Below are positions 16,150 through 53,371 of a stretch of DNA of 64,000 nt, in pieces; positions within the stretch are counted from its first letter, which is position 1, and every line of letters begins with the position of its first letter. A program made the position numbers and the translations under genes. The stretch is taken from assembly GCF_007752535.1 (NCBI RefSeq), contig NZ_CP036426.1, positions 2,852,001 to 2,916,000 of the forward strand, in the 5' to 3' direction. The notes under the pieces are model-generated. The model had not been told where the DNA came from. It searched no databases and saw nothing but the letters and a program-made list of their open reading frames with translations. Source of the DNA: Tautonia plasticadhaerens (GTDB taxonomy: Bacteria > Planctomycetota > Planctomycetia > Isosphaerales > Isosphaeraceae).

Positions 16150-16500
16150 CGGGCCGACTTCCTCGCCCGGCACAGCACCATCACGCTGACGATGGACCGC
16201 TATACGCACGTCGACCAGGGCGACGTGGCTGGTGCCCTCAGCCGGGTCTCGCTCTTCGCTCCCCAGAAACCCTCCGCGGAGGAGCTGGGGACCCCTTCCG
16301 TCCCGAGATTGGACGGATCAGTACCCCCTTCCGCTTGCACTGGCGCTTGCACAGAACTTGCACAAACGCCTGTCCCGTCCTGTCCCGAGTTTTCGCCCGA
16401 TGGCACGGACGGGACGGCGGACGGAGACGAAGGAGAGTGCCACAAAGCAAAGGGGGACAAGGAGATTGGCACCCCTTGTCCCTCTTTGACGCCGGTTGAC
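16150..16500 (+). pseudogene. Tyrosine-recombinase (integrase) C-terminal remnant
   Basis: The frame carries LARHSTITLTMDRYTHVD, the final box of tyrosine recombinases with the His and the catalytic Tyr, and then a long Pro/Ser/Thr-rich tail that reads into the tRNA-Ser fragment at 16502. The intact integrase at 51947 has the same arrangement: its C-terminal tail also reads antisense through tRNA-Ser. The N-terminal and core parts are missing, replaced by a broken IS630 transposase. It is most simply the leftover integrase of an older element inserted at the same tRNA site. Confidence 0.65.
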
Positions 16501-16501
16501 A

Positions 16502-16562
16502 AGCGGAGGGGGAGGGATTCGAACCCCCGGAGCCGTTGCCGGCTCAGCGGTTTTCAAGACCG
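16502..16562 (-). repeat. tRNA-Ser 3'-half fragment, candidate left attachment site
   Basis: These 61 bases match 53272-53332 with two mismatches, at 16533 and 16542. They cover the tRNA-Ser 3' end, T arm, variable arm and anticodon loop (TTGAAAA, anticodon UGA), on the minus strand. Sequence diverges immediately beyond the anticodon stem, so no complete tRNA is made. Such 3'-half duplications are the normal scar of integration into a tRNA gene. Confidence 0.8.
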
Positions 16563-16766
16563 ATGGCGGGATGCCGCAAGCAACCCAAAGTCAACGGTTT
16601 ACGGCTTGCCCCGGATCCGGTTGCCCCTCATTTGCCCCACGACATCCGTAGGACTTCTCCGGACCTGGCCGAAGTCGTTGACGCCTGGCCCGAGCTGCCC
16701 GAGGCGATCCGGGCCGGCATCCTTGCGATGGTCCGAACCTCCTCGGGTGGACGGGGGGAGCGATGA
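16563..16766 (+). CDS. Small hypothetical protein next to the attachment site
   Basis: A 67-aa frame starts at the first ATG after the tRNA fragment. Its second half, SPDLAEVVDAWPELPEAIRA and GILAMVRTS, is protein-like and resembles a short conserved segment I associate with planctomycete mobile regions. Its stop overlaps the ATG of the following HTH gene (ATGA). Function unknown; it may be the in-frame end of an older gene interrupted by integration. Confidence 0.45.
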   Translation: MAGCRKQPKVNGLRLAPDPVAPHLPHDIRRTSPDLAEVVDAWPELPEAIRAGILAMVRTSSGGRGER

Positions 16767-17194
16767 GCCGCTCAAGGACGCCCGACCCCGAGGCCATCCG
16801 AGCCCTCCTCGAAGCCCTCCGGGCGGGGAGCTTCCCCGGGCCCGCCTGCCGGGCCGCCGGGATCAGCCGGAGCACCCTTCGCCGATGGCTGGAACGGGGA
16901 CGCACGAAGGACGGGCACGACGCCCCCTATCGGGCCTTCCGGCGAGACTACCGGGCCGCGATCGCCTCGGCCGCGATCGCGGCGTTGGACTCGATCCGCC
17001 GCGCCGGGTCCGAGGGAATCCCCGGCTTCTGGCAGGCCAGTGCCTGGCTCCTGGAGCGTCGGTTCCCGGCCCGATGGCGGAGGAAGGACCGGGCGCCGGA
17101 CCCGTCGCCACCGAAGCCCCACTCGCAGATGACCGACGCGGAGCTTGACGCCTACTGCCATCGTCTCGGCCTGCTCGACGAGCCGCGTCGGTGA
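16763..17194 (+). CDS. HTH protein, terminase-small-subunit-like
   Basis: The 143-aa protein has a GGGGGGAG ribosome site. A helix-turn-helix lies at about residues 20-50 (GPACRAAGISRSTLRRWLER), followed by a basic helical middle with WQASAWLLERRFPARWRRKD and an acidic C-terminal helix, MTDAELDAYCHRLGL. This build (HTH, then an ERRFP-W basic segment) is seen in phage terminase small subunits and related HTH proteins. Two more genes of this general type follow, at 17226 and 17667. No large terminase is present, so a packaging role is inference; simple DNA binding or regulation is possible. Confidence 0.55.
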   Translation: MSRSRTPDPEAIRALLEALRAGSFPGPACRAAGISRSTLRRWLERGRTKDGHDAPYRAFRRDYRAAIASAAIAALDSIRRAGSEGIPGFWQASAWLLERRFPARWRRKDRAPDPSPPKPHSQMTDAELDAYCHRLGLLDEPRR

Positions 17195-17225: not shown

Positions 17226-17654
17226 ATGCCACGCCCCACCAAGTTCACCCCCGAGATCGGCGAGTCGGTCCTCCGCCATCTCGCCTCGGGCCGCTCCCGA
17301 CGGGAGACGGTCGAGGCCCTGGGGATCGGTCGTCGGACCCTTCAGGACTGGCTCCGCCGGGGACGGGCCGGGGAGCCCGGCCTCGCGGCCTGGGCCGAGC
17401 GGGTCGATCGGGTGGCGACCCTGATGCACCGGCAGCGGGTCCGGGCGACCTGGGATCGCCTCGAGGCCGAGTCGAAGGAGCGCTGGATGCGGTTCAAGCG
17501 GGCCCGGGAGGAGTACTGGATGGAGCGGCTCGGGCCGCTCGAGTTCTGGAGCCGTCGGCTGGCGTGGCTGGCCGAGCGAGGGCGGTGGGAGGCGTACCGA
17601 CGGACACTCGAGCGGCTCAGGACCGAGGGTTTCCGCACCGACTGCACACCATAA
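17226..17654 (+). CDS. HTH protein, terminase-small-subunit-like (second)
   Basis: The 142-aa protein begins MPRPTKFTPEIGESVLRHLA, a typical opening of TerS-like HTH proteins. The recognition helix region is RRETVEALGIGRRTLQDWLR at about residues 24-43. The rest is a long basic, Trp-rich helical region (RWMRFKRAREEYWMERLGPL). It lies 31 bp after the first HTH gene and 12 bp before the third, so the three were probably one operon. It shares the N-terminal plan with its neighbours but not the C-terminal half. Confidence 0.55.
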   Translation: MPRPTKFTPEIGESVLRHLASGRSRRETVEALGIGRRTLQDWLRRGRAGEPGLAAWAERVDRVATLMHRQRVRATWDRLEAESKERWMRFKRAREEYWMERLGPLEFWSRRLAWLAERGRWEAYRRTLERLRTEGFRTDCTP

Positions 17655-38164: not shown

Positions 38165-39385
38165 GTGGTCGGCCACTGACGACTTGAGGGATGGGCTGCA
38201 ATCGGTTCTCCTGGAGCCCTAACCGCTTCAGGAGCATCGACATGAAGAAGTACATCGTGACGCTCACCGCCGACGAACGCCAGGCCCTCCTCGATCTCAT
38301 CTCCGCCGGCAAGGCCTCCGCTCTGAAACTGGCCCATGCCCGCATCCTCCTCAAGGCTGATGCCGCCGAGGGCGGGCCCGCCTGGCCCGACGACCGCATC
38401 GCCGAGGCCGTCGAGGTCTCTGTCGCCACCATCGAGCGGGTCCGCCAGCGGTTCGTCGAGCAGGGCCTGGAGGCCGCCCTGGTCCGCAAGACGCAGGCCC
38501 GTCCCAGCCGCCAGCGGGCCCTCGACGGCCGGGCCGAGGCGAAGTTGATCGCCCTGGCCTGCTCGGAGCCCCCCGACGGCCGCAAGGCCTGGACGATGCG
38601 ATTGCTGGCCGACAAGCTCGTCGAGTTGGAGATCGTCCCCTCGATCTCCGACGAGACGGTGCGCCGCTCTTTGAAAAAAGCGAACTGAGGCCGCATCTGA
38701 AGCAGCAGTGGTGCATCCCGCCGGAGGCGAACGCCGAGTTCGTGGCGGCGATGGAGGACGTGCTGGAGGTCTACCACCGGCCCTACGACGAGACGCGACC
38801 GCTGGTCTGCCTCGACGAGGCGAGCAAGCAACTGATCGGCGAGACGGTCGTGCCGATCCCGGCAGCGCCAGGGCGGCTCGAGCGGTTCGATCACGAATAC
38901 GTCCGCAACGGGACGGCCAACCTGTTCATGGTGACGATGCCGCTGCTGGGGTGGCGTGCGGTCCACGTCACCGAGCGTCGGACGGCGTTGGACTTCGCCG
39001 AGGTGGTGCGTTGGCTGGTGGAGGAGGTGCACGAGGAGGCGGAGAAGGTCGTGCTGGTGATGGACAACCTGAACACGCACAAGATCGCCTCGCTGTACGA
39101 GGCGTTCCCGCCGGAGCGGGCCCGTCGGATCGCCGGGAAGTTGGAGATCCACCACACGCCGAAGCACGGGAGTTGGCTGAACATGGCGGAGATCGAGCTG
39201 TCGGTGCTGGCGAGGCAGTGCCTGGACCGGCGGATCGGGTCGAGCGAGGAACTGAAGCGGGAGGTCGCGGCGTGGGAGGAGGACCGCAACGAGCGGATGG
39301 TGGGCATTCGGTGGCAGTTCACCACGGCGGATGCCCGGATCAAACTGCACCGACTATACCCGGCAACTCAATAGCGGACGACCAC
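38165..39385 (+). mobile_element. IS630-family element, type B, copy 1 (in hsdR)
   Basis: 1221 bp with ends GTGGTCGGCCACT and, inverted, GTGGTCGTCCGCT. TA duplications are at 38163-38164 and 39386-39387. It has the same length and predicted proteins as the inverted copy at 42360-43580. Confidence 0.92.
38242..39374 (+). CDS. IS630-family transposase (type B), -1 frameshift
   Basis: The first frame (MKKYIVTLTADERQALLDLI, HTH in IAEAVEVSVATIERVRQRFV) ends just after the slippery TTGAAAAAAGCG (six A at 38674-38679). The second frame has WCIPPEANAEFVAAMEDVLE and the DDE domain: LVCLDEASKQLIGETVVPIP, VVLVMDNLNTHKIASLYEAF and HTPKHGSWLNMAEIELSVLA. The fused product is about 377 aa. It is related to the type A transposase, sharing plan and slippery site, but clearly divergent in sequence. 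Confidence 0.9.
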
Positions 39386-42359
39386 TAGCGCGTCGATGAT
39401 CGCGTTCATGATCTCGGACTTCAGGTCGGGCGAATTGGCGAACTGCTCCTTGGTGTTGTGGGTCGCCTGCTGCCTGAGCTTCTCGGATTCCAGCAGCTTG
39501 CCCATGATGACGTTGTTGACGTAGACCAGCTTGTCCTGGTCAGTCAGTTCCCCCTCGAACAGTTCATTCACACGCTGGATGATCTCGTTCAGCAGCGCCT
39601 TCTGCTTCTCCTGGACGCTCCCGCCGCCCGCCTCCGTCATCGGTTGGAGCTTGGGCGTGTCGCCGCCGCCGAGGGTCATCGACTGCTTGCCCTGGTTCTT
39701 CAGGCTGTGATGGGTCAGCACGACACTGGGCGATGTTGTACGGGTGGAGCCGCACCCACCGCATGATCCCCTTCAAGGCCGCGCTGCGCTCGACCTCCGT
39801 GTCCTCCACGTCCTTGCCGTCGTGCGCGAGCCGAAAGGCCAGCTTGTACGTTGTGTAGTTCTGGAGCACGTCGAGGATGAACTTCTCCTCGATCGCCTGC
39901 CGCATCGAGTAGACGTGGAAGGGAGCGGGGAGGTTGTCCGGGCCGGCGGGCTGGCTCGGGTCGGGCCGAGTGCCGAATAGCTCCATCGTCTTCGGCTTCG
40001 GCGTGGCGGTGAACGCGACGTAGGTGATCCCCGTGTCCTCGGCCCTCGCCGTCATCTCGGCGGCGAGGATGTCCTCGGCATCGACCTCGCCGCCGTCGTT
40101 CAGGTCCTTGAGTTCCTCGCCGGACAGCACGGCCTTCAACTTCGCCGCCGCCTCTCCGGTCTGCGAGCTATGCGCCTCGTCGGCGATCACCGCGAACCGC
40201 TTGCCCTGGGTCGCCGCAAGCTCTCGGACTGCCCTGATCGCGTAGGGGAAGGTCTGGATCGTGCACACGACGATCTTCTTGGAGCCCGAGAGGGCCGCCG
40301 CGAGTTCGCCGCTCTTGCTGCCCCCCTCGCCCTTGATCGTCGCCACGACCCCTTGCGTCCGCTCGAAGTCGAAGATCGCCTCCTGCAACTGCGTGTCGAT
40401 CACGTTCCGGTCGAAGACGACGAGGACCGTGTCGAACAGCTTCGCCTGCTCCTGATTGTGCATGTCGGCCAGGAAGTGGGCCGACCAGGCGATCGAGTTC
40501 GTCTTCCCCGACCCGGCCGAGTGCTGGATCAGGTACGTGCCGCCCGGCCCCCGCTCCCGCACGGCGGCTTGAAGTTTTCGCGTGGAGTCGAGCTGGTGGA
40601 ACCGGGGGAAGATGTACCGCTCGATCTGCTTATTCTTGTCCCGCTTCGCCACGAGGTAGCGGCCGAGGATTTCGAGCCAGCCATGCCGCTCCCAGATGCG
40701 CTCCCAGAGGTAGGCGGTGCGGTGCCCGCCCGTCGGATTGACGGGGTTGCCGGCCCCGCCGCCGTCGCCCTGGTTGAACGGCAGGAAGACGGTGCTCGGG
40801 CCGTCGAGCCGCGTCGTCATCTGGACTTCGCGGCTGCTGACGGCGAAGTGGACGAGGGCCCCGTTGGGGAACGAGAGCAGCGGCTCGGGGGCCTGGCCCT
40901 TCGGCCGGGGATGGCGGTCGAAGCGATACTGGTCGATGGCGTCAATGATGCCCTGGGTGAAGTCGGTCTTCAACTCGGCCGTCGCCACCGGCACGCCGTT
41001 CAGGAACAAAACGAGATCGATGCTGTTCTCGTTTTGGGTCGAATACCGGACCTGGCGGACGACCCGGAGGCGGTTCGCCTCGTACCGGGCGAGGATGTCG
41101 GGATTGATCGCGAGGGCGGGCTTGAACTGGACGAGCGGCAGTTTCTCGCGGAGGCCCAGCATCTCGATCCCTTGCCGGAGCACATCGAGCGTGCCCCGCT
41201 GGTCAATCTGGTCGCGGAGCCGGGCAAGCAGTGTTTCGGCCGCCTTCGATCCGTGGTTCTTTTCGAGGGCGCCCCAGGCGTTAGGCTGGGTGAGCGTAAC
41301 CCAGGCCAGCACGTCCTCGGGGTACAGGACCCGCGTCCGGTCATATTTCGCCGCGTCGCCGTCCTCATGGAGCCAGCCGTTGGCAGCGAGGTGGTCGCAG
41401 ATTTCGGCCTCGAAGTTGACCTCGTGATGCAGGCTCATGCGGCCTCCGACTCGGCCAGCCCGCGCACGTCAATCTTGCCGGTGACGGCGGCGGAGATGAG
41501 GGCGGTTCGACGCTCTAGAAGAAGGTCGATTGCCCTTTGACCTTCTGAGCAAAGCGAGTCGAGACGAGCGAGTTCATTATCTAAATGCGAGAGCAAGAAC
41601 TTTTGTTCCGGCAAAGGAGGATAACAAACGGGCATTTTTGATAGTCTTGAAATATAAATATGCTTAATTGTAGTACCTCCTGCATCAAATAGCATTCGCT
41701 CTTGGTAGATCCCGCCAAGGAGACAGGTCGCCATAAACCGGGGAAGAATCAATTCTGGCTTGGGATTGAGCTTTGCAACCGACTGGTTTATACAGCATTC
41801 TCGCCCATCGTGGACAGCGACCCTGCCGAGTGTTCCATCCTTCGTTATCAGGACATCCCCCTCTTTAGGTCGGCTCTTGTCTGTGAGGTCGTTTCGATAA
41901 GCTTCGTAACTTGTCTTGCGGGCAGTTTCGTACTTGACTCGGCCGTAATCCACATCATTCGCGGTCAGCAGATACGGACCCTCCTCGGTAGTAGGCATCG
42001 GGTTCGTGAACCCATAGGTGACTTGTTCGCACAAGTGAGAGACTGGCGTCACGCTCCAATGTGCTGGCACGTCGCCGAGCCACTCGATGCCGGAGGGCTT
42101 CATGGGGGCGTGTGGGTTCAGGCCCTTGGTGACGGCGTGGGAGATGACGGCCTGGCGTTTTTCCTTCAGCAGTTCAATCAGCCGCCTCTGCTCCCCCACC
42201 AGCGCGTCAATCTTCGCCATCTCTTGGCAGAGAAACGCGGAGATCAAGACTTGCTCGGGCATTGGGGGTAAGGCGAGTTTCCTCGTCGCCATGACCGATA
42301 ATGGAATACGCGAACGAGTCGAACCTGAAGACAAAAACCCACCATCAAAGGTGGAACTA

Positions 42360-43580
42360 GTGGTCGTCCGCTATTGAGTTGCCGGGTATAGTCGGTGCAG
42401 TTTGATCCGGGCATCCGCCGTGGTGAACTGCCACCGAATGCCCACCATCCGCTCGTTGCGGTCCTCCTCCCACGCCGCGACCTCCCGCTTCAGTTCCTCG
42501 CTCGACCCGATCCGCCGGTCCAGGCACTGCCTCGCCAGCACCGACAGCTCGATCTCCGCCATGTTCAGCCAACTCCCGTGCTTCGGCGTGTGGTGGATCT
42601 CCAACTTCCCGGCGATCCGACGGGCCCGCTCCGGCGGGAACGCCTCGTACAGCGAGGCGATCTTGTGCGTGTTCAGGTTGTCCATCACCAGCACGACCTT
42701 CTCCGCCTCCTCGTGCACCTCCTCCACCAGCCAACGCACCACCTCGGCGAAGTCCAACGCCGTCCGACGCTCGGTGACGTGGACCGCACGCCACCCCAGC
42801 AGCGGCATCGTCACCATGAACAGGTTGGCCGTCCCGTTGCGGACGTATTCGTGATCGAACCGCTCGAGCCGCCCTGGCGCTGCCGGGATCGGCACGACCG
42901 TCTCGCCGATCAGTTGCTTGCTCGCCTCGTCGAGGCAGACCAGCGGTCGCGTCTCGTCGTAGGGCCGGTGGTAGACCTCCAGCACGTCCTCCATCGCCGC
43001 CACGAACTCGGCGTTCGCCTCCGGCGGGATGCACCACTGCTGCTTCAGATGCGGCCTCAGTTCGCTTTTTTCAAAGAGCGGCGCACCGTCTCGTCGGAGA
43101 TCGAGGGGACGATCTCCAACTCGACGAGCTTGTCGGCCAGCAATCGCATCGTCCAGGCCTTGCGGCCGTCGGGGGGCTCCGAGCAGGCCAGGGCGATCAA
43201 CTTCGCCTCGGCCCGGCCGTCGAGGGCCCGCTGGCGGCTGGGACGGGCCTGCGTCTTGCGGACCAGGGCGGCCTCCAGGCCCTGCTCGACGAACCGCTGG
43301 CGGACCCGCTCGATGGTGGCGACAGAGACCTCGACGGCCTCGGCGATGCGGTCGTCGGGCCAGGCGGGCCCGCCCTCGGCGGCATCAGCCTTGAGGAGGA
43401 TGCGGGCATGGGCCAGTTTCAGAGCGGAGGCCTTGCCGGCGGAGATGAGATCGAGGAGGGCCTGGCGTTCGTCGGCGGTGAGCGTCACGATGTACTTCTT
43501 CATGTCGATGCTCCTGAAGCGGTTAGGGCTCCAGGAGAACCGATTGCAGCCCATCCCTCAAGTCGTCAGTGGCCGACCAC
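42360..43580 (-). mobile_element. IS630-family element, type B, copy 2 (in hsdS)
   Basis: Inverted copy of 38165-39385, also 1221 bp. TA duplications at 42358-42359 and 43581-43582. It splits the hsdS central region; excision restores the frame. Confidence 0.92.
42371..43503 (-). CDS. IS630-family transposase (type B), -1 frameshift, second copy
   Basis: Same protein as at 38242-39374 in both frames, on the opposite strand; slippery run at 43066-43071. No difference in the predicted residues was seen, so one copy came from the other recently. All DDE residues are present. Confidence 0.9.
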
Positions 43581-43769
43581 TAGCCGTTAATTGCTGAGCG
43601 ACGAACTCGGGCAGCGCTTTCGACACGTCCAATCGAAATCGAAAACAATCGGCCTTCACCATTGCCGGCTCAATCCCGGGTGGTGCAACACATGCCCTGC
43701 CAACTGTGTTTCTTTCATCGCCAAGACCAGCAATGAGCACATCGCCACGGCAAATGTCATGGCCGGCTA

Positions 43770-44994
43770 GTGAAGCGTCACTCGTTAATCTTCGGGTAGA
43801 GGTGCCTCAGCTTGATCCGGGCGTCCTCGGTGGTGAAGTGCCACTCGACGCCCACCTGTTTGGCGTTCCGGCGCTCGCCCCAGGCGCCGGCCTCCCCGGC
43901 CACCTCGTCCTGCACCGCGATGCGCCGGTCCAGGCACTGCCGCGTCAACACCGACAGCTCGATCTCGGCGACGTTCAGCCAGCTGCCGTGCTTCGGCGTG
44001 TGCACCAGCTCCAGTCGCCGCGCCAACCGCAAGGCCTCGGCCGGCTCGAACGCCTTGTACAGCGACGCCAGCGAATGGGTCACGAGGTTGTCGCAGACCA
44101 GCGTGATCCGCTCGGCCTCGGCGTGGCGCGGGTCGTCCACCAGCCGCTGCACCCGGTGGGCCCAGTCCACGGCCGTCTTCGCCTCGGTCACGCGCACGTC
44201 GCGCCAGCCGGCCAGCGGCTCGACGAACATCCACACCGTGCAGGTCCCCTCGCGGACATACTCGTAGTCGACCCGGGCCGGGCGTCCGGGCGCCGCCGGC
44301 GATGGCCGCCGCGCCTCGGCGATCAGCTGCTTGGGCTGTTCGTCCATGCAGACGACGGGGCGCCTCGGATCATACGGGCGCCGGTAGGCCTCCAGGACCT
44401 GCTCCATCTGGCAGACGAAGGCCGCGTCCTGCTCCGGCGGGATGCACCACATCCGCCTGAGCCACGGCTTCAGCGCGCTTTTTTCAAAGAGCGGCGGACG
44501 GTCTCGTGCGAGACCGCCGCGACGACCTCCAACTCCACCAGGCGCTCGGCCAGCAGCCGGAGCGACCAGCGGGCCAGGCCCCTGGGCGGCTGCGAGCAGG
44601 CCAGGGCCGTCAACCGCGCCTCGTTCTCGCCGCCGAGTTTGGGGACCGCCGACGGGGTCCGCGGCCTGCGCTGCAGCAGCGCCATCGGCCCGTGCTCGAC
44701 GGCCCGCTTGCGCCACGACTCCAGGCTGCGGGTCGTGACGCCGAACGCCTCGGCGATCTTCGCGTCGGGCCAGGCCGGCCCGTCGGGCCCCTGGTCGCAC
44801 TTGAGCAGGGCCTGAGCCCGCTGCACCTTCCAGCCGGCGATGTTGCCCTTGCGGACCAGGCGAGCCAGCTCGGCCCGCTCTTCGGCCGTCAGCTTCAGGA
44901 CGTACTTCTTTGCCATGGCAACCCCCCCGGCGAGCCACGATGCGGCCGGACAAGGGGGGTCATTTTACCCGAAAATCAGCGAGTGACGCTTCAC
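43770..44994 (-). mobile_element. IS630-family element, type A, copy 2 (in hsdS)
   Basis: Inverted copy of 1889-3113, also 1225 bp. TA duplications at 43768-43769 and 44995-44996. It splits hsdS after YYREEL; removal restores the reading frame. Confidence 0.92.
43778..44916 (-). CDS. IS630-family transposase (type A), -1 frameshift, second copy
   Basis: Same protein as at 1967-3105 in both frames; the slippery run is at 44479-44484. DDE residues are in VVCMDEQPKQL, LVCDNLVTHS and LNVAEIELSVL. Identity with the other copy indicates recent transposition. Confidence 0.9.
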
Positions 44995-45244
44995 TAGTTC
45001 TTCTCGGTAGTATGTCTCGTCGATGAAAGCCGTGTCAGACCCATCAAATCCATTTGCCCTAATATTCTGGAGCCGAACTACTCTCACGCCTGTATCGGTG
45101 TAATGTTCCGACTTGAGGCCCGATCCAAACGGCCCGTCACATTTGTCAATTGTGATTTTCCGAGTGCTGTTACTGTCCAATCTCGGGGGACCAATCCCAG
45201 CCATTCCACCCCGCTATCCTTGTACGTCCCGTACCTCGGAAAAC

Positions 45245-46997
45245 TCATCTCGACAGTCCCCCGATCATCTCAAGAATCCGGTCGGTGACGCCCTTCAACT
45301 CCGCGTCAATCTCGGCCAGGTCGCGGGGCGGTTTGAACACGTAGAAATGCCGGTTGAACGGGATCTCGTAGCCCACCTTCGTCTTGTCGTGGTCGATCCA
45401 CGCATCGGGCGTATGCGGCAGCACTTCCCGCTTGAAGTACGTCTCCACGTCCTCGCCGAGCGGCACGTTCTCGGTGTCGCGGAGGCTGGAATCGGGCTGG
45501 GGCTTGCCCTTCGCCTTGCCTCGGGTGCCGAGCACGACCTTCCCCTTCTCGTCCCGCAGGGGGTGTTCCACCGTGATCGTGCGGTAGCCGAAGTCCTCGT
45601 TCCTGAAGATGCGGCTGATCGGCACGCCGTCGCAGTTGACTTCCCGGCACTCGCCAAATAGCCGCGTGATCTCCTCGATGTGCTCAGGGCTCAGCTCCTT
45701 GCGCTTGCTGCCCAGGCTCTTGCGCATCTTCCGCCAGTATCCGCTGGCGTCGATCAGTTGCACCTTGCCCTTCCTCGGCGTCGGCTTGCGATTGCTGACA
45801 ATCCAAACGTAGGTGCTGATGCCCGTGTTGTAGAACATGTGGATCGGGAGCGCGACGATGGATTCGAGCAGGTCGTTCTCTAGCACGTAGCGGCGGATCT
45901 CGCTCTCGCCCGACCCCGCCCCGCCCCGCCCCGCCCGTGAACAGCGGTGACCCGTTCAGGACGATGCCGAACCGGCTGCCCCCGTCGACGGCGGGCCGCA
46001 TCTTCGAGATCAGGTGCAACAGGAACAGCAACGAGCCGTCACTCACCCGGGGCAGGCCCGGCCCGAACCGCCCGTTGAAGCCCTGCTGCTCGGCCTCCCG
46101 GCGGACCTCCTTCTCGATCTTCTTCCACTCCACGCCGAACGGGGGGTTGGACAGCATGTAGTCGAACTGCTTCCCCGGCAGGCCGTCGTTCGACAGCGCG
46201 TTGCCGAAGATGATGTTGGCGATGTCCTGCCCCTTGATCAGCATGTCGGCCTTGCAGATCGCGTACGACTCGGGGTTCAACTCCTGCCCGTACATCACCA
46301 GACGGGCTTCCTCGTTCATGCTCGCCAGGTGCTCGTCGGCCACCGATAACATGCCGCCCGTTCCCGCCGTGGGGTCGTAGAGCGACCGGACGACGCCCGG
46401 CTTGCGAAGGGCGTCGTCGTCCTCGATGAAGATCAGGTCGACCATGAGCCGGATGACTTCGCGCGGGGTGAAGTGCTCCCCGGCGGTTTCGTTCGAGAGT
46501 TCGGCGAACTTGCGGATCAGTTCCTCGAACACCGCCCCCATCTGGGCGTTGCTGACGACCTCGGGATGCAGGTCGATGGTCGCGAACTTCTCGGTGATCA
46601 GGTACAGCAGCTTCGCCTTCGCCAGCCGGTCGACCTGCGTGTGAAAGTCGAAGCTCTCGAAGATGTCCCGCACGGCCTGCGAGAACGCCTGGATGTAGGC
46701 GAACAGGTTCTCCCGAATGTGGTCCTGGTCGCCGACCAGCTTCTTCATGTCCAGGGGCGACGTGTTGAAGAAATGCTGGCCCGACTTCCGCAGCAGGAAC
46801 GGCTCCGGGTTCAGCCCGGCCTTCTCCCTGGCCTCCCGCTCGGCCAGCACGGCGGCCTTGGTCTTCTCCAGCACGCAGTCGAGCCGCCGCAGCACGGTGA
46901 ATGGCAGGATCACCTTGCCGTACTCGGACTGCTTGTAGTCTCCCCGCAGCAGGTCGGCCACTGACCAGATGAACGAAGACAGGTTCGGGTCATTCAT
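45245..46997 (-). pseudogene. hsdM: Type I DNA methyltransferase M subunit, frame broken at a pentanucleotide repeat
   Basis: From ATG 46997 ([20 protein letters not shown]) the N-terminal helical domain and the methylase core are intact: SAM-binding [17 protein letters not shown] and the catalytic NPPF motif in [15 protein letters not shown]. In-frame coding ends at the (CGGGG)4 tract (45916-45938), where [12 protein letters not shown] should continue [20 protein letters not shown]. Two repeat units would keep the frame; four shift it. The rest, [20 protein letters not shown] to EMIGGLSR, is undamaged in the other frame (45245-45935). Total about 580 aa when joined. Product methylates adenine in the HsdS-defined site. 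Confidence 0.88.
45916..45938 (-). repeat. CCCCG pentanucleotide repeat in hsdM
   Basis: Four CCCCG units plus CCC on the plus strand (CGGGG on the coding strand). The reading frame of hsdM switches here. Loss of two units or gain of one would restore the frame, so slippage could turn the gene on and off. Confidence 0.8.
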
Positions 46998-47395: not shown

Positions 47396-48832
47396 ATGCT
47401 CGACGAAGACACTTCCACCGGGCCAACCGGCCCGAGGCCCGAGGACGCGCCGGCGCCGATCGTCTACAGCACGACCGGGAAGGCAAGCGGCCCAAACCAT
47501 ACCTTCGATCCCTCCGGGGCGAAGTGCTATGAATCGCCGAACCTCCGATGGATTGGGCCGCACGTCTACCGAGAACGCCTGTATGCCATCGACGGGCGAT
47601 GGATCGCGGTTCGGTGGCGCCCCTCTCGGCCGAAGGAACGCGGGAATCCCGGAGGCCGACCAGCCGGGGTTGGCGTGGCCCTGTCGCTCGACGAGGCCGC
47701 GAAGTGGTTCGCCGATCACGGTCTCGATCCCCCCGGCCTCCTCGTCAACCAGTTGGCCGCTCCCCGGGAGCCCCAGGGCGACCCGACGGGGGGGGCCACC
47801 ATCGCGCGTGCAGCCCTCCCCCTGCTCAAGGCGGTGCTCGCCCAACTGGAGAACAACCCGGACGACCCCTATGCCGCCTCGGCCCTCGATGGACTCGCCG
47901 GGGAGATCGGAAAGGCCCTCGATCGGTGGATCGGCCGATCGCACGGCGGTGATCCCGGGTCGAACGTCGGGATCGCGTTCAACGCGCTGTGGCGACTGAA
48001 CGATGCTCTGGCGACTCGCGATCCGGCCAAGATTGGACCGGCCGCCGATGCCCTTAAAAGGGCCCTCCGCCTGCTCCCAGAAACGCCCCCGGGGGCGAGC
48101 GGCCCGATGCCCGGGGCCGCTCCTCGGAGTCGCGCCGACGTTCCCATCCCCGAGTGGCGTCGGCCGATCCGCGGGTTGACCCCGCACGCAAGGCAGACGT
48201 TGGCCGGCTGGCTTCGCACGCGGAAACGGCTTGGGCTCTATGAGGCGGGGGCCATCCTGGAAGAACTCGACAGGTTGGAGCGGTTCGATTCCGACTGGTA
48301 TCGGGAACAGGCCCGGATTCAATTCCGCCTGCTCGACGCGATCCCGGGGGCAGATCGGGTTTTTCGCCGCTACTTCGACCTGGCTACGTTCAGCAGTGCC
48401 GGTCGACCGACGCCGGAGTTCATCCGGAGCCTGATCGACGAACTGATCGCTCGTGGGGAATCGCCGGATTGGATCCGACGTACGCCGCTCGCGGTGGCTC
48501 TGGATCGGCTGGAGTTAATCCGGGATCAGGCCGGGGGCCGCTCTCTTGACGCCCCGAGACAGGAAACCGAGCCGTCCCCCGAGGATCGCTTGGAGTTGGA
48601 GCTTCGCCGCAGGGGTAAGGGGAGTCCTATTGCAGCAACACTGGTGGGCTACATGAAAGGGAAGGAGTGCGCTCTCCCCTCCGATGTCGGCGACGAGGTT
48701 CATGACGATCGAGATGCTAGCGACAAGACGATCCGGGGGAACCTCAATCGCGTCAACGAAGTCGCGGAGGAACTCGGCTTGTCCCTGCGCTATCGACTGA
48801 AGGGGGGCCGGGTCTGGAAGGAAAGGGGGTGA
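47396..48832 (+). CDS. Unknown 478-aa protein of the integrative module
   Basis: The protein begins MLDEDTSTGPTGPRPEDAPA with a GGGGAAG ribosome site. The first 100 residues contain WIGPHVYRERLYAIDGRWIA and VALSLDEAAKWFADHGLDPP; a helical middle part has AIARAALPLLKAVLAQLENN-like and YEAGAILEELDRLERFDSDW segments. The last 70 residues (GKGSPIAATLVGYMKGKECA, DASDKTIRGNLNRVNEVAEE, LGLSLRYRLKGGRVWKE) look like a winged helix. A TATACT box lies at 47270-47275. It precedes iteron-like repeats and the AlpA-like, primase and integrase genes, so a replication-initiation or control role is conceivable but unproven. No known family recognised. Confidence 0.55.
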   Translation: MLDEDTSTGPTGPRPEDAPAPIVYSTTGKASGPNHTFDPSGAKCYESPNLRWIGPHVYRERLYAIDGRWIAVRWRPSRPKERGNPGGRPAGVGVALSLDEAAKWFADHGLDPPGLLVNQLAAPREPQGDPTGGATIARAALPLLKAVLAQLENNPDDPYAASALDGLAGEIGKALDRWIGRSHGGDPGSNVGIAFNALWRLNDALATRDPAKIGPAADALKRALRLLPETPPGASGPMPGAAPRSRADVPIPEWRRPIRGLTPHARQTLAGWLRTRKRLGLYEAGAILEELDRLERFDSDWYREQARIQFRLLDAIPGADRVFRRYFDLATFSSAGRPTPEFIRSLIDELIARGESPDWIRRTPLAVALDRLELIRDQAGGRSLDAPRQETEPSPEDRLELELRRRGKGSPIAATLVGYMKGKECALPSDVGDEVHDDRDASDKTIRGNLNRVNEVAEELGLSLRYRLKGGRVWKERG

Positions 48833-48838
48833 TTGGTC

Positions 48839-48882
48839 GATGCATCCAAGATGTATCCGAGATGCATCCGAGACGCATCCGG
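48839..48882 (+). repeat. Four tandem 11-bp iteron-like repeats
   Basis: GATGCATCCAA, GATGTATCCGA, GATGCATCCGA and GACGCATCCGG follow without gaps, one turn of helix each. The location between the unknown 478-aa gene (stop 48832) and the genes for a small protein, AlpA-like factor and primase is what one expects of an initiator-binding origin or an operator. Confidence 0.75.
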
Positions 48883-48933
48883 TCGCGCTCATGATTCGCT
48901 CGGGCGGGGAAAGAACCGCCTGGGAGATCCACC

Positions 48934-49143
48934 ATGAGCGAATCCGACCGCGACTTGATCCCGCCGCCGCCCCTGGTCCGGGCGAAGCTGGCACGGGCCG
49001 TTAGGGAGGCCCGACGGCTACGGTCATTGCTCCGCCTCTCCGAGAAGGCCGAGCTCGACCGCCAGTTCTGCGATGAGCTGATCCACGCCACGAAGTCCCA
49101 CGAGGGCCGCCGTATAGTCGATGGCCGGGGGGTGGCCAGATGA
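48934..49143 (+). CDS. Small hypothetical protein
   Basis: 69 aa, MSESDRDLIPPPPLVRAKLA then RAVREARRLRSLLRLSEKAE and FCDELIHATKSHEGRRIVDG. It looks like an alpha-helical protein with a basic centre. A GGGAGATCCACC leader precedes the ATG, and the stop overlaps the next gene start (ATGA), so it belongs to the same operon as the AlpA-like and primase genes. Function unknown. Confidence 0.5.
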   Translation: MSESDRDLIPPPPLVRAKLARAVREARRLRSLLRLSEKAELDRQFCDELIHATKSHEGRRIVDGRGVAR

Positions 49144-49499
49144 ACTGCCCGACCCGAACGCCCTCGCCTGAGGCCGCTGCAAGCCCCGAGTCGTCCGAGC
49201 CTGCCGAACTGCCCCCCGGCATCGGCCAATTGGCCGAGATGCTGGCCGCCTCGCTGGACCGGATCGCGGCCCGGATGCTGGCCGCCGAGATGGCCGCCGC
49301 TGGCATCGAGCCGCTGGTCGGGATCGACGAATGGGCCGCAACCCTGGCCTGTTCTCGACGCGAAGTCGAGCGAATGCGATCGGCCAGGAAGCTGCCCCCG
49401 CCGGACTTGTCGATCGGCCGGTCACCCCGGTGGAAGGCCGCCACGCTCCGGACCTGGATCGACGAGCAATCACGGGCCTCGGGCCGGGGGGGACGATGA
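49140..49499 (+). CDS. AlpA/excisionase-like DNA-binding protein
   Basis: 119 aa. After a Pro/Ser-rich start come a helix (IGQLAEMLAASLDRIAARML) and a MerR-type winged helix-turn-helix, LVGIDEWAATLACSRREVER, MRSARKLPPPDLSIGRSPRW, KAATLRTWIDEQSRA. This is the pattern of AlpA/Xis-like factors that direct excision or regulate integrases. Its stop overlaps the primase start (ATGATGA), and the integrase lies 2.4 kb downstream. Excisionase function is inferred. Confidence 0.65.
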   Translation: MNCPTRTPSPEAAASPESSEPAELPPGIGQLAEMLAASLDRIAARMLAAEMAAAGIEPLVGIDEWAATLACSRREVERMRSARKLPPPDLSIGRSPRWKAATLRTWIDEQSRASGRGGR

Positions 49500-51259
49500 T
49501 GAGTCCCCATCGTGACCCGACCGAACGCCTCGTGGCCCGGCTCGAGTCCCTGGGGTTCGACCCTCGCCCGACCGGTTCCGACTCGTGGGAGAGCCGATGC
49601 CCGGCCCACGACGGGGACCGACGGAACCTGTCCGTCTCGAGGGGCGACGACGGCCGGGCACTGGTCCGATGCCACGCCCACGGTTGCCCCGCCGGGGATA
49701 TCGTGGCCGCGCTCGACCTGGACCTGAGCGATCTGTTCACACCCCGGGACGATCGCTCCACCCCCACGAGGCCCCGGGCCAACGGCAAGGCCCGAGCCGA
49801 CCGGAAGGCCCACCCGACCCCCGAGGCCGCCATCGGGGGAACCGCCCTCAAGCTGGGCAGCCCGACGGCCCATTGGGCCTATCACGAGGCCGACGGGACC
49901 GAGGCCGCCCGGGTCTATCGGTTCGACCCGGCGGGCGAGCGGAAGCAGTTCCGGCCCGTCCATCTGACCGCCGAGGGCTGGGTGATGGGCGACCCGCCCG
50001 GACTCTGGCCGCTCAATCACCTGTGCAACCTGGCCGACTCTGACCGGGTCTACGTCGTCGAAGGTGAGAAGGCTTGCGACCTGGCCCGGAACCTCGGGGC
50101 GACCGCCACGACAACGGCCCACGGCTCGAAGTCGGCCCACAAGAGCACCTGGAACCCCTTGGCCGGGCGGGATGTCGTCATCCTGCCCGACGCCGATCCC
50201 GAGGGGGAGGATTACGCCCAAGCCGTCATCGCGGAGCTGGCGAAGCTATCCCCGAGGCCCACGGTCCGGGTCGTCCGCCTGGACGACCTCTGGCGGACGG
50301 ATGCCGAGATCACCAAGGGGGCCGACATCGCGGAATGGCTTCAGGACGGTGTCCCCGAAGGCTGGGAACCCGAGCAATGCCGGGAGGAGTTGGATCGAGT
50401 GGCGGACCTGGCCCCCATGCTGGACCTCCCCCCCCCGCCCCCGGCCGAACCCCGGGACGCTCCCGAGCCGCCCGTCGGCCCGGCCTGGCCCGATCCGCTC
50501 GAAGCCCCCGAGCTTGATGGCTTGGCCGGGGAGCTCGTCCGGGCCATCGAGCCCCACACCGAGGCGGACCCGGTGGCCATCCTCGGGCAACTGCTCATCG
50601 GGTTCGGCAACTTGATCGGCCGTTCCGCGTTCTTCGCCGTGGAGGCCGACCGGCATTACGGCAATGAGTTCCTCGCCCTCGTGGGGGAGACCGCCAAGGG
50701 CCGCAAGGGGACCAGTTGGAGCCATGCCCGGCGCCTGCTGGACGCCGCCGATCCGGCCTGGACCGCGGATCGGGTGATGACCGGGCTGAGCACCGGGGAA
50801 GGCCTGATCCACGCCGTTCGGGATCCGGTGATGAAGCGAGAGCCTATCAAGGACGGCCCGTCGAAACGCATCATCGGCTATCAGGAGGTCGAAGTCGACC
50901 CGGGCGAGACGGACAAGCGGATCTTGTGCATCGAGCCCGAGCTTGGAGGGACGCTCCGGGTAGCGACCCGGGACGGGAACAATTTGTCGGCCCTCGTGCG
51001 CCAGGCCTGGGACTCGGGCGAACTGCGGACCCTGACCCGGAACAACCCGCTCAAAGCGACCGGCGCCCATGTCTCGATCGTCGGACATATCACCCGCGAT
51101 GAGCTGGCCACGCTGCTGACCCGGACCGACGCCGCGAACGGCTTCGCCAATCGGTTCCTGTGGCTCTGCGTCCGCCGGTCCAAGCTGCTCCCGTTCGGCG
51201 GGTCGATCGGCGACGTGGATTTCGCCCCTTTGGTGCGACGGCTCACCGAGGCCGCCTAA
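49496..51259 (+). CDS. Zinc-finger/TOPRIM primase-helicase, N-terminal part before an in-frame stop
   Basis: Starts MMSPHRDPTERLVARLESLG. A primase zinc finger with CPAHDGDRRNLSVSRGD and RCHAHGCPAGDI lies at residues 34-68. A TOPRIM-like part follows, RVYVVEGEKACDLARNLGAT and DVVILPDADPEGEDYAQAV (Glu and DxD). From about residue 320 comes a DUF3987-type ATPase-like region (YGNEFLALVGETAKGRKGTS as P-loop-like, CIEPELGGTLRVATRDGNNL). A TAA at 51257-51259 stops the frame at 587 codons, but the same frame continues to 51748. Such proteins replicate plasmids, phages and satellites. Confidence 0.75.
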   Translation: MMSPHRDPTERLVARLESLGFDPRPTGSDSWESRCPAHDGDRRNLSVSRGDDGRALVRCHAHGCPAGDIVAALDLDLSDLFTPRDDRSTPTRPRANGKARADRKAHPTPEAAIGGTALKLGSPTAHWAYHEADGTEAARVYRFDPAGERKQFRPVHLTAEGWVMGDPPGLWPLNHLCNLADSDRVYVVEGEKACDLARNLGATATTTAHGSKSAHKSTWNPLAGRDVVILPDADPEGEDYAQAVIAELAKLSPRPTVRVVRLDDLWRTDAEITKGADIAEWLQDGVPEGWEPEQCREELDRVADLAPMLDLPPPPPAEPRDAPEPPVGPAWPDPLEAPELDGLAGELVRAIEPHTEADPVAILGQLLIGFGNLIGRSAFFAVEADRHYGNEFLALVGETAKGRKGTSWSHARRLLDAADPAWTADRVMTGLSTGEGLIHAVRDPVMKREPIKDGPSKRIIGYQEVEVDPGETDKRILCIEPELGGTLRVATRDGNNLSALVRQAWDSGELRTLTRNNPLKATGAHVSIVGHITRDELATLLTRTDAANGFANRFLWLCVRRSKLLPFGGSIGDVDFAPLVRRLTEAA

Positions 51260-51280
51260 GTTGCCCGGACCCGAGGCCGG

Positions 51281-51748
51281 ATGACCCGGGACGCCGCCGC
51301 CGATGAGCTGTGGGCCGCCTCCTATCCCGAGTTGTCCGGGGGGCGGCCCGGCCTCCTCGGCGCCGTCACGTCGCGGGCCGAGGCCCACGCGATGCGCCTG
51401 GCCATGCTCTATGCCCTGATCGACGGATGCCCGATGATCCATGCCGATCATCTCCAATCCGCTCTGGCCCTCTGGCGGTACGCCGAACGGAGCGCCGCCC
51501 ACATCTTCGGAGACGCCCTGGGCGACCCGGACGCCGACGCCTTGCTCGAGGCCCTCCGCGCCTCGATGCCCGAGGGGCTGACCCGGACCGAGATCCGGGA
51601 AGGTGTCTTCCAGAAGAACAAGTCGTCGCAGCGGATCGCGGGGACCCTCCGGGTGCTGACCGCTGCCAACCTGGCCTTCTGCCGGATGGAGCCAACAGCG
51701 GGACGATCGGCGGAGCGTTGGTTTGCAGGTAGGGAACCTACGCCATAA
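51281..51748 (+). pseudogene. C-terminal part of the primase-helicase, after the stop
   Basis: In the same frame as the gene before it, VARTRGRMTRDAAADELWAA and GLLGAVTSRAEAHAMRLAML continue the helicase-like C-terminal domain. The all-helical end follows (DADALLEALRASMPEGLTRT, IREGVFQKNKSSQRIAGTLR). The stop at 51257 is the only obstacle. An ATG at 51281 could allow the part to be made on its own. Either a nonsense mutation or natural splitting; I favour mutation because homologues I know are single proteins. Confidence 0.65.
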
Positions 51749-51946: not shown

Positions 51947-53371
51947 ATGGCCGACCTGAGGAAGCGTGGGAAGAACTGGTACTACCGATTCACCGACGCC
52001 GACGGGCGACGGGTGGAGCGGAAGGGTTGCCCCGATCGTCGGGCGACCGAGGAGATGGCCCGAGCGGCGGAGTCGGACGCCGCCCGGCAACGGGCCGGGC
52101 TGATCGACCCCAAGGCCGACGCCTTCCGGCGCCACGAGGCGCGACTCCTGGCCGATCACCTGGACGACTGGCGGGCCGACCAGTTGGCTCGGGGTGTGAC
52201 CCCCAAGCAAGCGAACCAGAACCGCAACCGGACCGGGCGGGTGATCGAGTTGGCCAGGGCGGAGCGGCTGTCCGATCTGACGCCCTCGGGGGTGCAAGCC
52301 GCCCTCGGGGCGGTCCGTGCGGAAGGAAAGGCCCTCCGGTCGGTCCATCACTACACCCGGGCGATCAAGGGATTCTCGCGCTGGCTCTGGCGCGATGGCC
52401 GGACGCGGGATGACGCCCTGGCCCACATTGCGCCACCTAAGAACCCCGATTCCGACCGCCGGCGCCGACGCCGGACCCTCTCCCCCGAGGAAGCCGCTCG
52501 ACTGATCGGGGCCGCCGAATCCGGGCCGGTCGTTTTCAAGCTGCCCGGCCCGGATCGGGCGATGCTCTATCGGCTGGCCCTCGGGACCGGGTTCCGGGCC
52601 GAAGAACTGGCATCCCTGACCCCGGAGAGCTTCCGACTCTCCGAAGCCCCTCCGGTGGTCGTCTGCGCGGCCGCCTACTCCAAGCGCCGCCGGGAAGATG
52701 TCCAGCCGATCCGGCCCGACCTGGCCGCCATCCTGGCCCCCTGGCGTGCATCCAAGTCCCCCTGCAAGCCACTATGGTCGATCAAGAGCGATCACACCGC
52801 CGCGATGATCCGGCGCGACCTGGCCGCCGCCGAGATTGCCTACGAAACCGATTCGGGGGTGGCCGACTTCCACGCCCTCCGCCACACCTACGTCACCATG
52901 CTTGCCAAGTCGAGCGCCCCGGTGAAGGTGGTGCAATCGTTGGCCCGGCACTCGACTCCGACGCTCACCCTCGGGACCTATGCCCACATCGGCCTGGCCG
53001 ACCAGTCGGCAACCCAGGACGCCCTGCCCCCGATCCGGCCCGAGTCACCCACGAACGAATCGGCCCGAGCAACGGGGACCGACGGACCTAGAAGCGATCG
53101 CTTTGCCCCATATTTGCCCCATACAGGGGACGGATTGGGTCGGTCCAGGTCGGATGGTGGCGATTCGGAAGCGATGAAAGCGGGTTCCGATGTGGCTCTG
53201 GCGATGAGTCGTAACCCCGTTGATTTCCAGGGAGTTGACGCTTTGAGTCGGACCCAGTCGGACCCTGTCGGAGCGGAGGGGGAGGGATTCGAACCCCCGG
53301 AGACGTTGCCGCCTCAGCGGTTTTCAAGACCGCCGCAATCGACCACTCTGCCACCCCTCCGAATTGCGTAA
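51947..53371 (+). CDS. int: Tyrosine-family site-specific integrase
   Basis: 474 aa with a TGGAGGGGG ribosome site. An N-terminal arm-binding part (LRKRGKNWYYRFTDADGRRV) and core-binding domain are followed by the catalytic domain: Arg in LALGTGFRAEELASLTPESF, Lys in AAAYSKRRREDVQPI, HALRHTYVTMLAKSSAP, His in VQSLARHSTPTLTLGTYAHI with the Tyr at GTY. All key residues are present. The last 40 residues (GEGFEPPETLPPQRFSRPPQ) are read antisense through tRNA-Ser at 53274-53360, so the gene end overlaps its own attachment site. It is probably responsible for the island spanning 16.5-53.3 kb. Confidence 0.93.
   Translation: MADLRKRGKNWYYRFTDADGRRVERKGCPDRRATEEMARAAESDAARQRAGLIDPKADAFRRHEARLLADHLDDWRADQLARGVTPKQANQNRNRTGRVIELARAERLSDLTPSGVQAALGAVRAEGKALRSVHHYTRAIKGFSRWLWRDGRTRDDALAHIAPPKNPDSDRRRRRRTLSPEEAARLIGAAESGPVVFKLPGPDRAMLYRLALGTGFRAEELASLTPESFRLSEAPPVVVCAAAYSKRRREDVQPIRPDLAAILAPWRASKSPCKPLWSIKSDHTAAMIRRDLAAAEIAYETDSGVADFHALRHTYVTMLAKSSAPVKVVQSLARHSTPTLTLGTYAHIGLADQSATQDALPPIRPESPTNESARATGTDGPRSDRFAPYLPHTGDGLGRSRSDGGDSEAMKAGSDVALAMSRNPVDFQGVDALSRTQSDPVGAEGEGFEPPETLPPQRFSRPPQSTTLPPLRIA
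53272..53332 (-). repeat. Right attachment repeat within tRNA-Ser
   Basis: 61 bp repeated at 16502-16562 with two mismatches in the variable arm. It covers the 3' half of the tRNA, from the anticodon loop to the discriminator base. Confidence 0.8.
53274..53360 (-). tRNA. tRNA-Ser(UGA)
   Basis: 87 nt with a 7-bp acceptor stem (GGAGGGG with CCCCTCC, discriminator G), anticodon loop TTGAAAA giving UGA, a long class II variable arm (GAGGC with GTCTC, one G:U pair) and the T-loop GTTCGAATC. No CCA is encoded. It is complete and also serves as integration site for the neighbouring integrase. Confidence 0.95.

Follow-up and report, generated by a model that had tools for sequence, protein, structure and literature searches.

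Elements of the PICMI type are recognised by a tyrosine integrase (PF00589), an AlpA-type regulator (PF05930 or PF12728), a DUF3987 primase (PF13148) and a site at fis (accessible text of PMC10803314), and PICI/SaPI elements and gram-negative PICIs by an int gene at one end, a regulator and a replication module within about 12-15 kb, by a lack of phage structural genes and by att sites that prophages do not use (accessible text of PMC6092414). Both kinds are mobilised and packaged by a helper phage. In archaeal SSV-type suicidal integrases the attachment site attP lies inside the integrase gene, which is disrupted upon integration, and the available part of a 2021 review calls such self-disrupting integrases exclusively archaeal (PMC8371274). 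In mycobacteriophage BPs, attP lies inside the repressor gene, and integration removes a C-terminal degradation tag (available part of PMC4557955). Here we report on a 64,000-nt stretch (the window) of contig NZ_CP036426.1 of the planctomycete Tautonia plasticadhaerens (family Isosphaeraceae), in which genes for a 478-aa protein, a 69-aa protein, a 119-aa helix-turn-helix (HTH) protein and a primase-helicase, together with a set of iterons, lie beside an integrase gene (int) at a tRNA-Ser gene. We put at about three in four the probability that this module is the replication and control core of a tRNA-targeted element, that the element belongs to a family in the Isosphaeraceae whose members probably are or once were phage satellites, and that it works by the mechanism set out below, in which the integrase is split by its own attachment (att) site.

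In the window, int runs through the tRNA-Ser(TGA) gene on the opposite strand, 22 bp of which recur exactly at position 16505 as part of a 61-bp att repeat (59/61 identical). The two att copies bound an element of 36.8 kb (16.5-53.3 kb), which is far longer than the extent given in the preliminary description; the relation between int and its att site had been missed there as well. All catalytic motifs, including the Tyr, are located upstream of att in the integrated int. At the far end of the element lies a conserved peptide (approximately DLAevvdAWpxLPEAiRaGIlAMVra), whose open frame extends back to the att core; when the element ends were joined in silico, int read in frame through arms and core into this tail. 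Moreover, within the coding sequence short repeats lie to either side of the core, mostly near -150/+60 for one tRNA orientation and mostly near -80/+145 for the other, which is the layout of lambda-type arm sites. Because arm-like repeats flank the core in this manner, a complete attP (P-arm, tRNA-derived core and P'-arm) seems to be nested in int, and integration would then cut the conserved tail off Int. Some bacterial phages have an attP that overlaps the extreme end of int.

The phase between int and tail was kept in 18/18 elements with a near-complete int (binomial P 2.6e-9), 11 of them from Isosphaeraceae and seven from other planctomycetes; this test was restricted to tails accompanied by both an int and a matching repeat in the fetched sequence. 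The tail frame contained no stop in any of these 18 elements, and the other two frames were interrupted by stops in 15 and 16 of them. Two elements with a broken int (L144 and L230) were also in frame, bringing the total to 20/21. The in-frame reading of one element (G008/L143) requires a crossover 3' of a one-base difference between the repeats, and in G002 the crossover must precede a base difference that creates a stop in the integrated copy.

A natural circular form was found in the 9200-bp IMG/VR contig IMGVR_UViG_3300035133_000029 (L217), whose 99-bp direct terminal repeat indicates a circle of 9101 bp. Its int is one unbroken frame of 539 aa running through an arm repeat at -143, the core, an arm repeat at +112 and the tail to the stop codon, and the core appears tRNA-like when read by eye. 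This circle also carries an excisionase-like HTH gene, an HK97 capsid gene (2e-40), a terminase small subunit (TerS) gene (4e-30) and a DnaB-like helicase gene; a scan of seven of its proteins revealed neither a terminase large subunit (TerL) nor a portal. A second uninterrupted int-tail reading, with the catalytic half of int, came from a Phycisphaerales contig (L287). This was the one open frame uniting tail and integrase domain among 91 tails in 83 further loci, and none was seen for the 74 tails of the fetched genome stretches. Two other tail-bearing IMG/VR contigs (L215 and L216) carry TerL, L216 also a portal gene, and because of these genes true phages appear to share the integrase design. 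Both contigs further show a ParB/methyltransferase fusion and look like probable planctomycete phages.

Judged from its substitution pattern, the tail is coding and under purifying selection: mismatch at codon positions 1/2/3 was 0.33/0.23/0.55 over 40 distinct tails, and was flat at about 0.7 in control stretches taken after (40) and before (36) the tails. A tail profile matched in 33/45 Isosphaeraceae genomes at 96 places (E up to 0.01), and in 74/392 Planctomycetota genomes, covering 65/267 genera (E up to 1e-4). In genome records of 84,980 species, 162 places were confirmed, and, judged by title, the best 80 of these 162 comprised 78 planctomycetes, one Latescibacterota metagenome-assembled genome and one other bacterium. 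The window tail as a single query found no match in phage or plasmid records. A whole tRNA gene was located at most 400 bp upstream of the tail in 15/58 and 11/64 loci (the count of 64 excluding loci with less than 450 nt on a side), and downstream in none.

As in the SSV type, attP thus lies within int and the gene is disrupted by integration, in a bacterial rather than an archaeal host. However, the archaeal split parts the N-terminal portion from the catalytic domain (PMC8371274, as far as its available part goes), whereas here the catalytic domain stays whole and the C-terminal tail is lost. The likeness to BPs consists of an attP in a coding gene and a C-terminally shortened protein after integration, the gene that is cut being here the integrase (available part of PMC4557955). 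The accessible text of PMC6764341, PMC11448139, PMC13107129 and PMC8115907 mentions no case of a bacterial tyrosine integrase gene that contains attP.

The positions of the module genes and iterons given in the preliminary description were borne out when codons were rechecked (Table 1). The primase-like open reading frame (ORF) as listed begins at 49331, but its ATGA overlap with the preceding gene points to 49496 as the likely start. The 69-aa and 119-aa genes, and likewise the 119-aa and primase genes, overlap by 4 nt (ATGA), and these overlaps support the suggestion of a single operon for the three genes. The support does not extend to the 478-aa gene, which is separated from the 69-aa gene by 101 nt containing the iterons, nor to int, which follows the primase frame after about 200 nt. 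Neither the 478-aa nor the 69-aa protein had a match in Pfam or PHROGs.

Within our sample of 45 Isosphaeraceae genomes (the same number at order level), a single-query search with the 478-aa protein gave matches in seven, six of them only over the last ~85 residues, and an alignment of this C-terminal domain matched in nine, at 10 places. The 69-aa protein matched in 10 of the 45, and in 9/9 genomes with the domain its gene was located 108-152 bp from it. Across the 392 phylum genomes, where the domain and 69-aa profile searches scored 13-19 candidates per genome, the 478-domain was found in two, both Isosphaeraceae (13 candidates scored per genome), and the 69-aa profile matched in five, namely two Isosphaeraceae and, weakly, G365, G075 and G384 (E 3e-4 to 9e-4). 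The profile searches proposed at the outset recovered a real family, not genes brought together by chance.

The order 478-like gene, 69-like gene, HTH gene, replication gene(s) and int was kept in G041, G002, G027, G009, G032 and the window, with varying content of the replication slot: DUF3987 and CHC2 primase in G041, Prim-Pol and DUF3987 in G002, AAA_25 and CHC2 in G027, and Toprim and DUF3987-like in the window. The int genes of G029 and G030 are located at the opposite end, adjoining the tRNA gene, and the G022 element is cut by a contig end. Seven elements with the 478/69 genes are bounded by tRNA-half repeats and measure 7.5-36.8 kb: the window element (tRNA-Ser, 36.8 kb), G041 (tRNA-Cys, 7.5 kb), G002 (tRNA-Leu, 8.4 kb), G027 (tRNA-Ser, 15 kb), G032 (tRNA-Phe, 14.6 kb), G029 (tRNA-Pro, 16.6 kb) and G009 (tRNA-His, 19 kb). 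For G030 (tRNA-Arg), no second att copy was present in the stretches searched. The set therefore recurs together at different tRNA genes (Ser, Cys, Leu, Phe, His, Pro and Arg) rather than being scattered in relatives, which supports the earlier idea of a replication/control module of a perhaps planctomycete-specific satellite or plasmid-like element; the expected gene order beside a tRNA gene did recur, although tRNA-Ser is only one of several sites.

The bounded elements carry variable cargo. Among seven proteins profiled, type III and SoFic genes were assigned to G032, a type IIG gene to G027, and a type II methylase and a restriction-endonuclease-like ATPase to G029. TerS-like genes were found in 4/7 bounded elements, namely the window (two), G032, G029 and G009, the other three having been only partly scanned, and in G029 an HK97 capsid gene lies alongside the TerS-like gene. 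In the T. plasticadhaerens genome itself, a strong match to phrog_4102 lies 15-33 bp downstream of 4/6 integrase tails. Two large genes of the G009 element (L040 16931-19611 and L087 67-2661) look by eye like phage tail or structural genes, and the large genes scanned in this element gave no Pfam or PHROGs match. With the primase as query, the best 20 of 103 matches in phage records reached at most 32.4% identity over at most half of the query, and the best match in plasmid records was Singulisphaera acidiphila pSINAC02 (46.6% over 47% of the query; NC_019894.1, 24436-26625), whose annotation, read by gene names and with no homology search aimed at 478/69, names no integrase. IMG/VR yielded no confirmed match to the 69-aa protein and no match to the window integrase.

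With PICMIs, these elements share an integrase, an AlpA/HTH_17-like protein, a DUF3987-type primase, 4-nt gene overlaps and variable cargo (accessible text of PMC10803314). The window integrase matches PF00589 (9.2e-14), and DUF3987 is detected in G041 (1.5e-61), G002 (1.3e-60) and, when the window frame is read through its one internal TAA, at 42.1 bits, which is over the cut-off; DUF5906 is also named as a primase model. The 119-aa protein matches HTH_17 (PF12728) at 2.3e-4 and 21.8 bits, below the cut-off of 27. Both the family and window att sites are at tRNA genes instead of fis. The elements differ further by the 478/69/iteron set, the variable replication slot and the attP inside int, and no helper is known. 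The view that the gene order belongs to no named family thus stands for the 478/69/iteron part, but not for the general plan of int, HTH_17 and DUF3987, which agrees with the PICMI genes as given in the accessible text of PMC10803314. With PICIs (accessible text of PMC6092414), the elements share int at one end, a replication module, sometimes terS, accessory genes and, in several relatives, a size of about 15 kb. The order of int, regulator and replication module was found, and no divergent repressor pair was identified in the elements; the relatives measure 7.5-19 kb, and the window element exceeds the PICI size. No structural genes were seen in the window module (part of the cargo was scanned), and G029 has its capsid gene. 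No relaxase or conjugation genes were noticed among the compact-element ORFs, although no profile search was aimed at them, and a limited literature search found no paper on planctomycete phage satellites or PICIs. Taken together, the elements appear to be PICMI/PICI-like integrative elements of Isosphaeraceae, distinguished by a 478/69/iteron module of their own and by integrases that split themselves.

The iterons begin within 10 bp of the 478-aa stop codon and comprise 3.9 copies of an 11-bp unit. Lag 11 was the top autocorrelation over the 66 nt tested and was reached by 0/2000 shuffles. In 9/9 loci compared, lag 11 gave the strongest autocorrelation of the stretch after the 478-like stop codon (0 to 0.0065 of 2000 shuffles reaching it), and phase and place of the repeats were conserved while the box sequence varied between elements, which suggests a co-evolving DNA-binding protein. 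Candidates suggested for this role are the winged-helix domain at the C-terminus of the 478-aa protein (AlphaFold pLDDT 89; best Foldseek match the SaeR DNA-binding domain, E 0.046) and the 119-aa protein, the model of which resembles BldC, RdfS, GIsul2 and Pukovnik Xis (E 0.1 and above). BldC binds direct repeats cooperatively. A hairpin preceding the 69-aa start was considered and is not claimed: 25% of mononucleotide shuffles reach its energy in the window, and at most 3.7% do so in 6/9 loci.

Based on these sequence features, we propose that the 478-aa winged-helix protein or the Xis-like 119-aa protein would bind the helically phased iterons and thereby control either an origin or the 69-119-primase operon. 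Excision would involve the 119-aa protein as an AlpA/Xis-type factor, the primase-helicase would copy the excised circle, and the terminase-like proteins may direct the packaging that a helper carries out. The circle would encode full-length Int with its conserved C-terminal tail, and integration would move the tail to the far element end and leave Int with a tRNA-coded end. Possible roles of the tail itself are contact between subunits, binding of the arms and turnover.

Several readings compete with parts of this proposal. The elements might be deletion remnants of ordinary temperate phages, with TerS and capsid genes as leftovers, an alternative that we regard as possible but do not favour: the TerL genes of L215 and L216, with the portal gene of L216, fit it, as does G029 with TerS and capsid but no TerL among its proteins scanned, whereas the 478-69-HTH-replication set keeps its order in seven elements of 7.5-36.8 kb despite swapped replication genes, and the closed 9.1-kb circle combines capsid and TerS with neither TerL nor portal among the proteins scanned. 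It is rather unlikely that the nested attP is a neutral overlap, with a dispensable tail and an integrated Int equal to the circular form. Although upon integration the whole catalytic domain sits upstream of att, and short attP overlaps with the int end occur in some bacterial phages, such neutrality agrees poorly with a tail that is under purifying selection, occurs phylum-wide and joins in frame in all 18 elements. The tail could also be a separate small gene at the element end, given that when integrated it has its own open frame directly before the TerS-like gene in the window, but phase and openness in 18/18 elements, the continuous int-tail frames of circular L217 and of L287, and the extension of the tail's open frame back into the att core make this very improbable. 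Phased repeats beside a DNA-binding gene also invite comparison with parC and tubC, and the four to five phased 11-bp repeats do adjoin a winged-helix gene; a partition site instead of an operator or origin nevertheless seems improbable, as no partner ATPase or GTPase was noticed among the compact-element ORFs (no profile search being aimed at one).

Other observations weigh against the satellite family and self-splitting integrase that we prefer. The frame is not kept in L142, whose int is fragmentary, and G005 has a split integrase without the 478/69 set. The 478-domain occurs without a 69-aa match at one place (G030:C5), and the reverse holds for G014. The structure matches are weak, none having a Foldseek E at or below 0.001. 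The window element, at 36.8 kb, is rather big for a satellite, the sole TerL-like match of the T. plasticadhaerens genome is degenerate (2 TGA), with no helper prophage evident, and the window copy may be inactive, given its primase TAA and broken restriction genes. Finally, phrog_4102 also matches in 5/14 control genomes, and the two window genes match nothing but HTH families in Pfam, so the label 'terminase' is likely rather than proven.

The primase frame of the window is broken by a TAA at 51257-51259, a position at which 4/4 aligned homologues have a sense codon, and because of this in-frame TAA the window copy is probably decaying. Its type I restriction-modification cargo is also decayed; the specificity subunit was identified by profile (1.2e-90), and the hsdM and hsdR labels come from sequence reading. 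A CCCGC run (5.4 copies, 45909-45936) lies at the break of the hsdM-like frame (ORFs 45684-46997 and 45245-45886), which could be a phase-variable or simply a decayed type I methylase. The type I genes are flanked by two inverted IS630-type copies (38191-39374 on the plus and 42371-43554 on the minus strand; 1184/1184 identical). A plain island bounded by insertion sequences was ruled out by the tRNA-half repeats. At 16763-16766, the integrase-tail stop overlaps the start of the TerS-like gene (ATGA), which could couple the translation of int and this gene in the circular form. Just beyond the left att copy, outside the element, the stretch at about 16160-16290 looks by eye like what remains of the C-terminal end of a further integrase, pointing to an older tandem element. 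Another tandem element is seen at L048 13512-13601, where a second integrase tail directly follows the integrase end of the G005 element.

Table 1. Features of the module and its surrounding element; positions refer to the 64,000-nt window of T. plasticadhaerens contig NZ_CP036426.1.
Feature	Position	Strand	Remarks
Att repeat, left copy	16502..16562	+	Repeat comparison
P'-arm-like repeat ATTTGCCCCA	16630..16639	+	Repeat search
Detached conserved integrase C-terminal tail, with stop codon	16656..16766	+	Circle reading
Terminase-small-subunit-like protein 1	16763..17194	+	phrog_4102 1.4e-24; Pfam HTH matches sub-threshold only
Terminase-small-subunit-like protein 2 (HTH)	17226..17654	+	phrog_1482/4102 about 1e-4; HTH_28 over cut-off
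Decayed type I restriction-modification cargo	39564..46997	-	Interrupted by IS630-type insertions
478-aa protein gene	47396..48832	+	Variable N-terminus; C-terminal ~85-aa winged-helix domain common to the element family
Iterons, four 11-bp direct repeats	48839..48881	.	TRF and autocorrelation
69-aa protein (C69) gene	48934..49143	+	Motif LIPxPPxxRxxL..RE..xLRxLxRL
119-aa HTH_17/excisionase-like protein (AlpA/Xis type) gene	49140..49499	+	Pfam HTH_17 below cut-off; phrog_66, phrog_597
Primase-helicase (zinc finger/Toprim/DUF3987-like), N-terminal part	49496..51259	+	phrog_6088 DNA primase 1.2e-22; closed by in-frame TAA
Primase-helicase frame, continuation past TAA	51260..51748	+	Open frame
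Tyrosine integrase, integrated-state form (474 aa, tRNA-coded end)	51947..53371	+	PF00589 9.2e-14; phrog_1 1.1e-38
P-arm-like repeats TTTGCCCCATA x2 inside int	53102..53123	+	Repeat search
Att repeat, right copy	53272..53332	+	Inside tRNA-Ser(TGA) 53273-53360 (-) and inside int

On a wider scale, phages and satellites of the Planctomycetota may share self-splitting integrases throughout the phylum, with full-length Int made only from the circle and the state of the DNA switching the form of Int, a proposal whose chances we judge to be about even. The two forms could, for example, be integration-competent or unstable on the one hand, and locked or excision-only with Xis on the other. Full Int could be provided in trans by an incoming circle, and recombination could let elements exchange their tails. 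The sequence evidence places a C-terminal self-disrupting integrase in bacteria, in one phylum, many elements and one closed circle, and the split Int would give a mobile element a means, open to experimental test, of sensing its own integration. The detached tail provides a marker for finding planctomycete phages and satellites, and the compact elements might provide genetic tools for the phylum, which has few of them.

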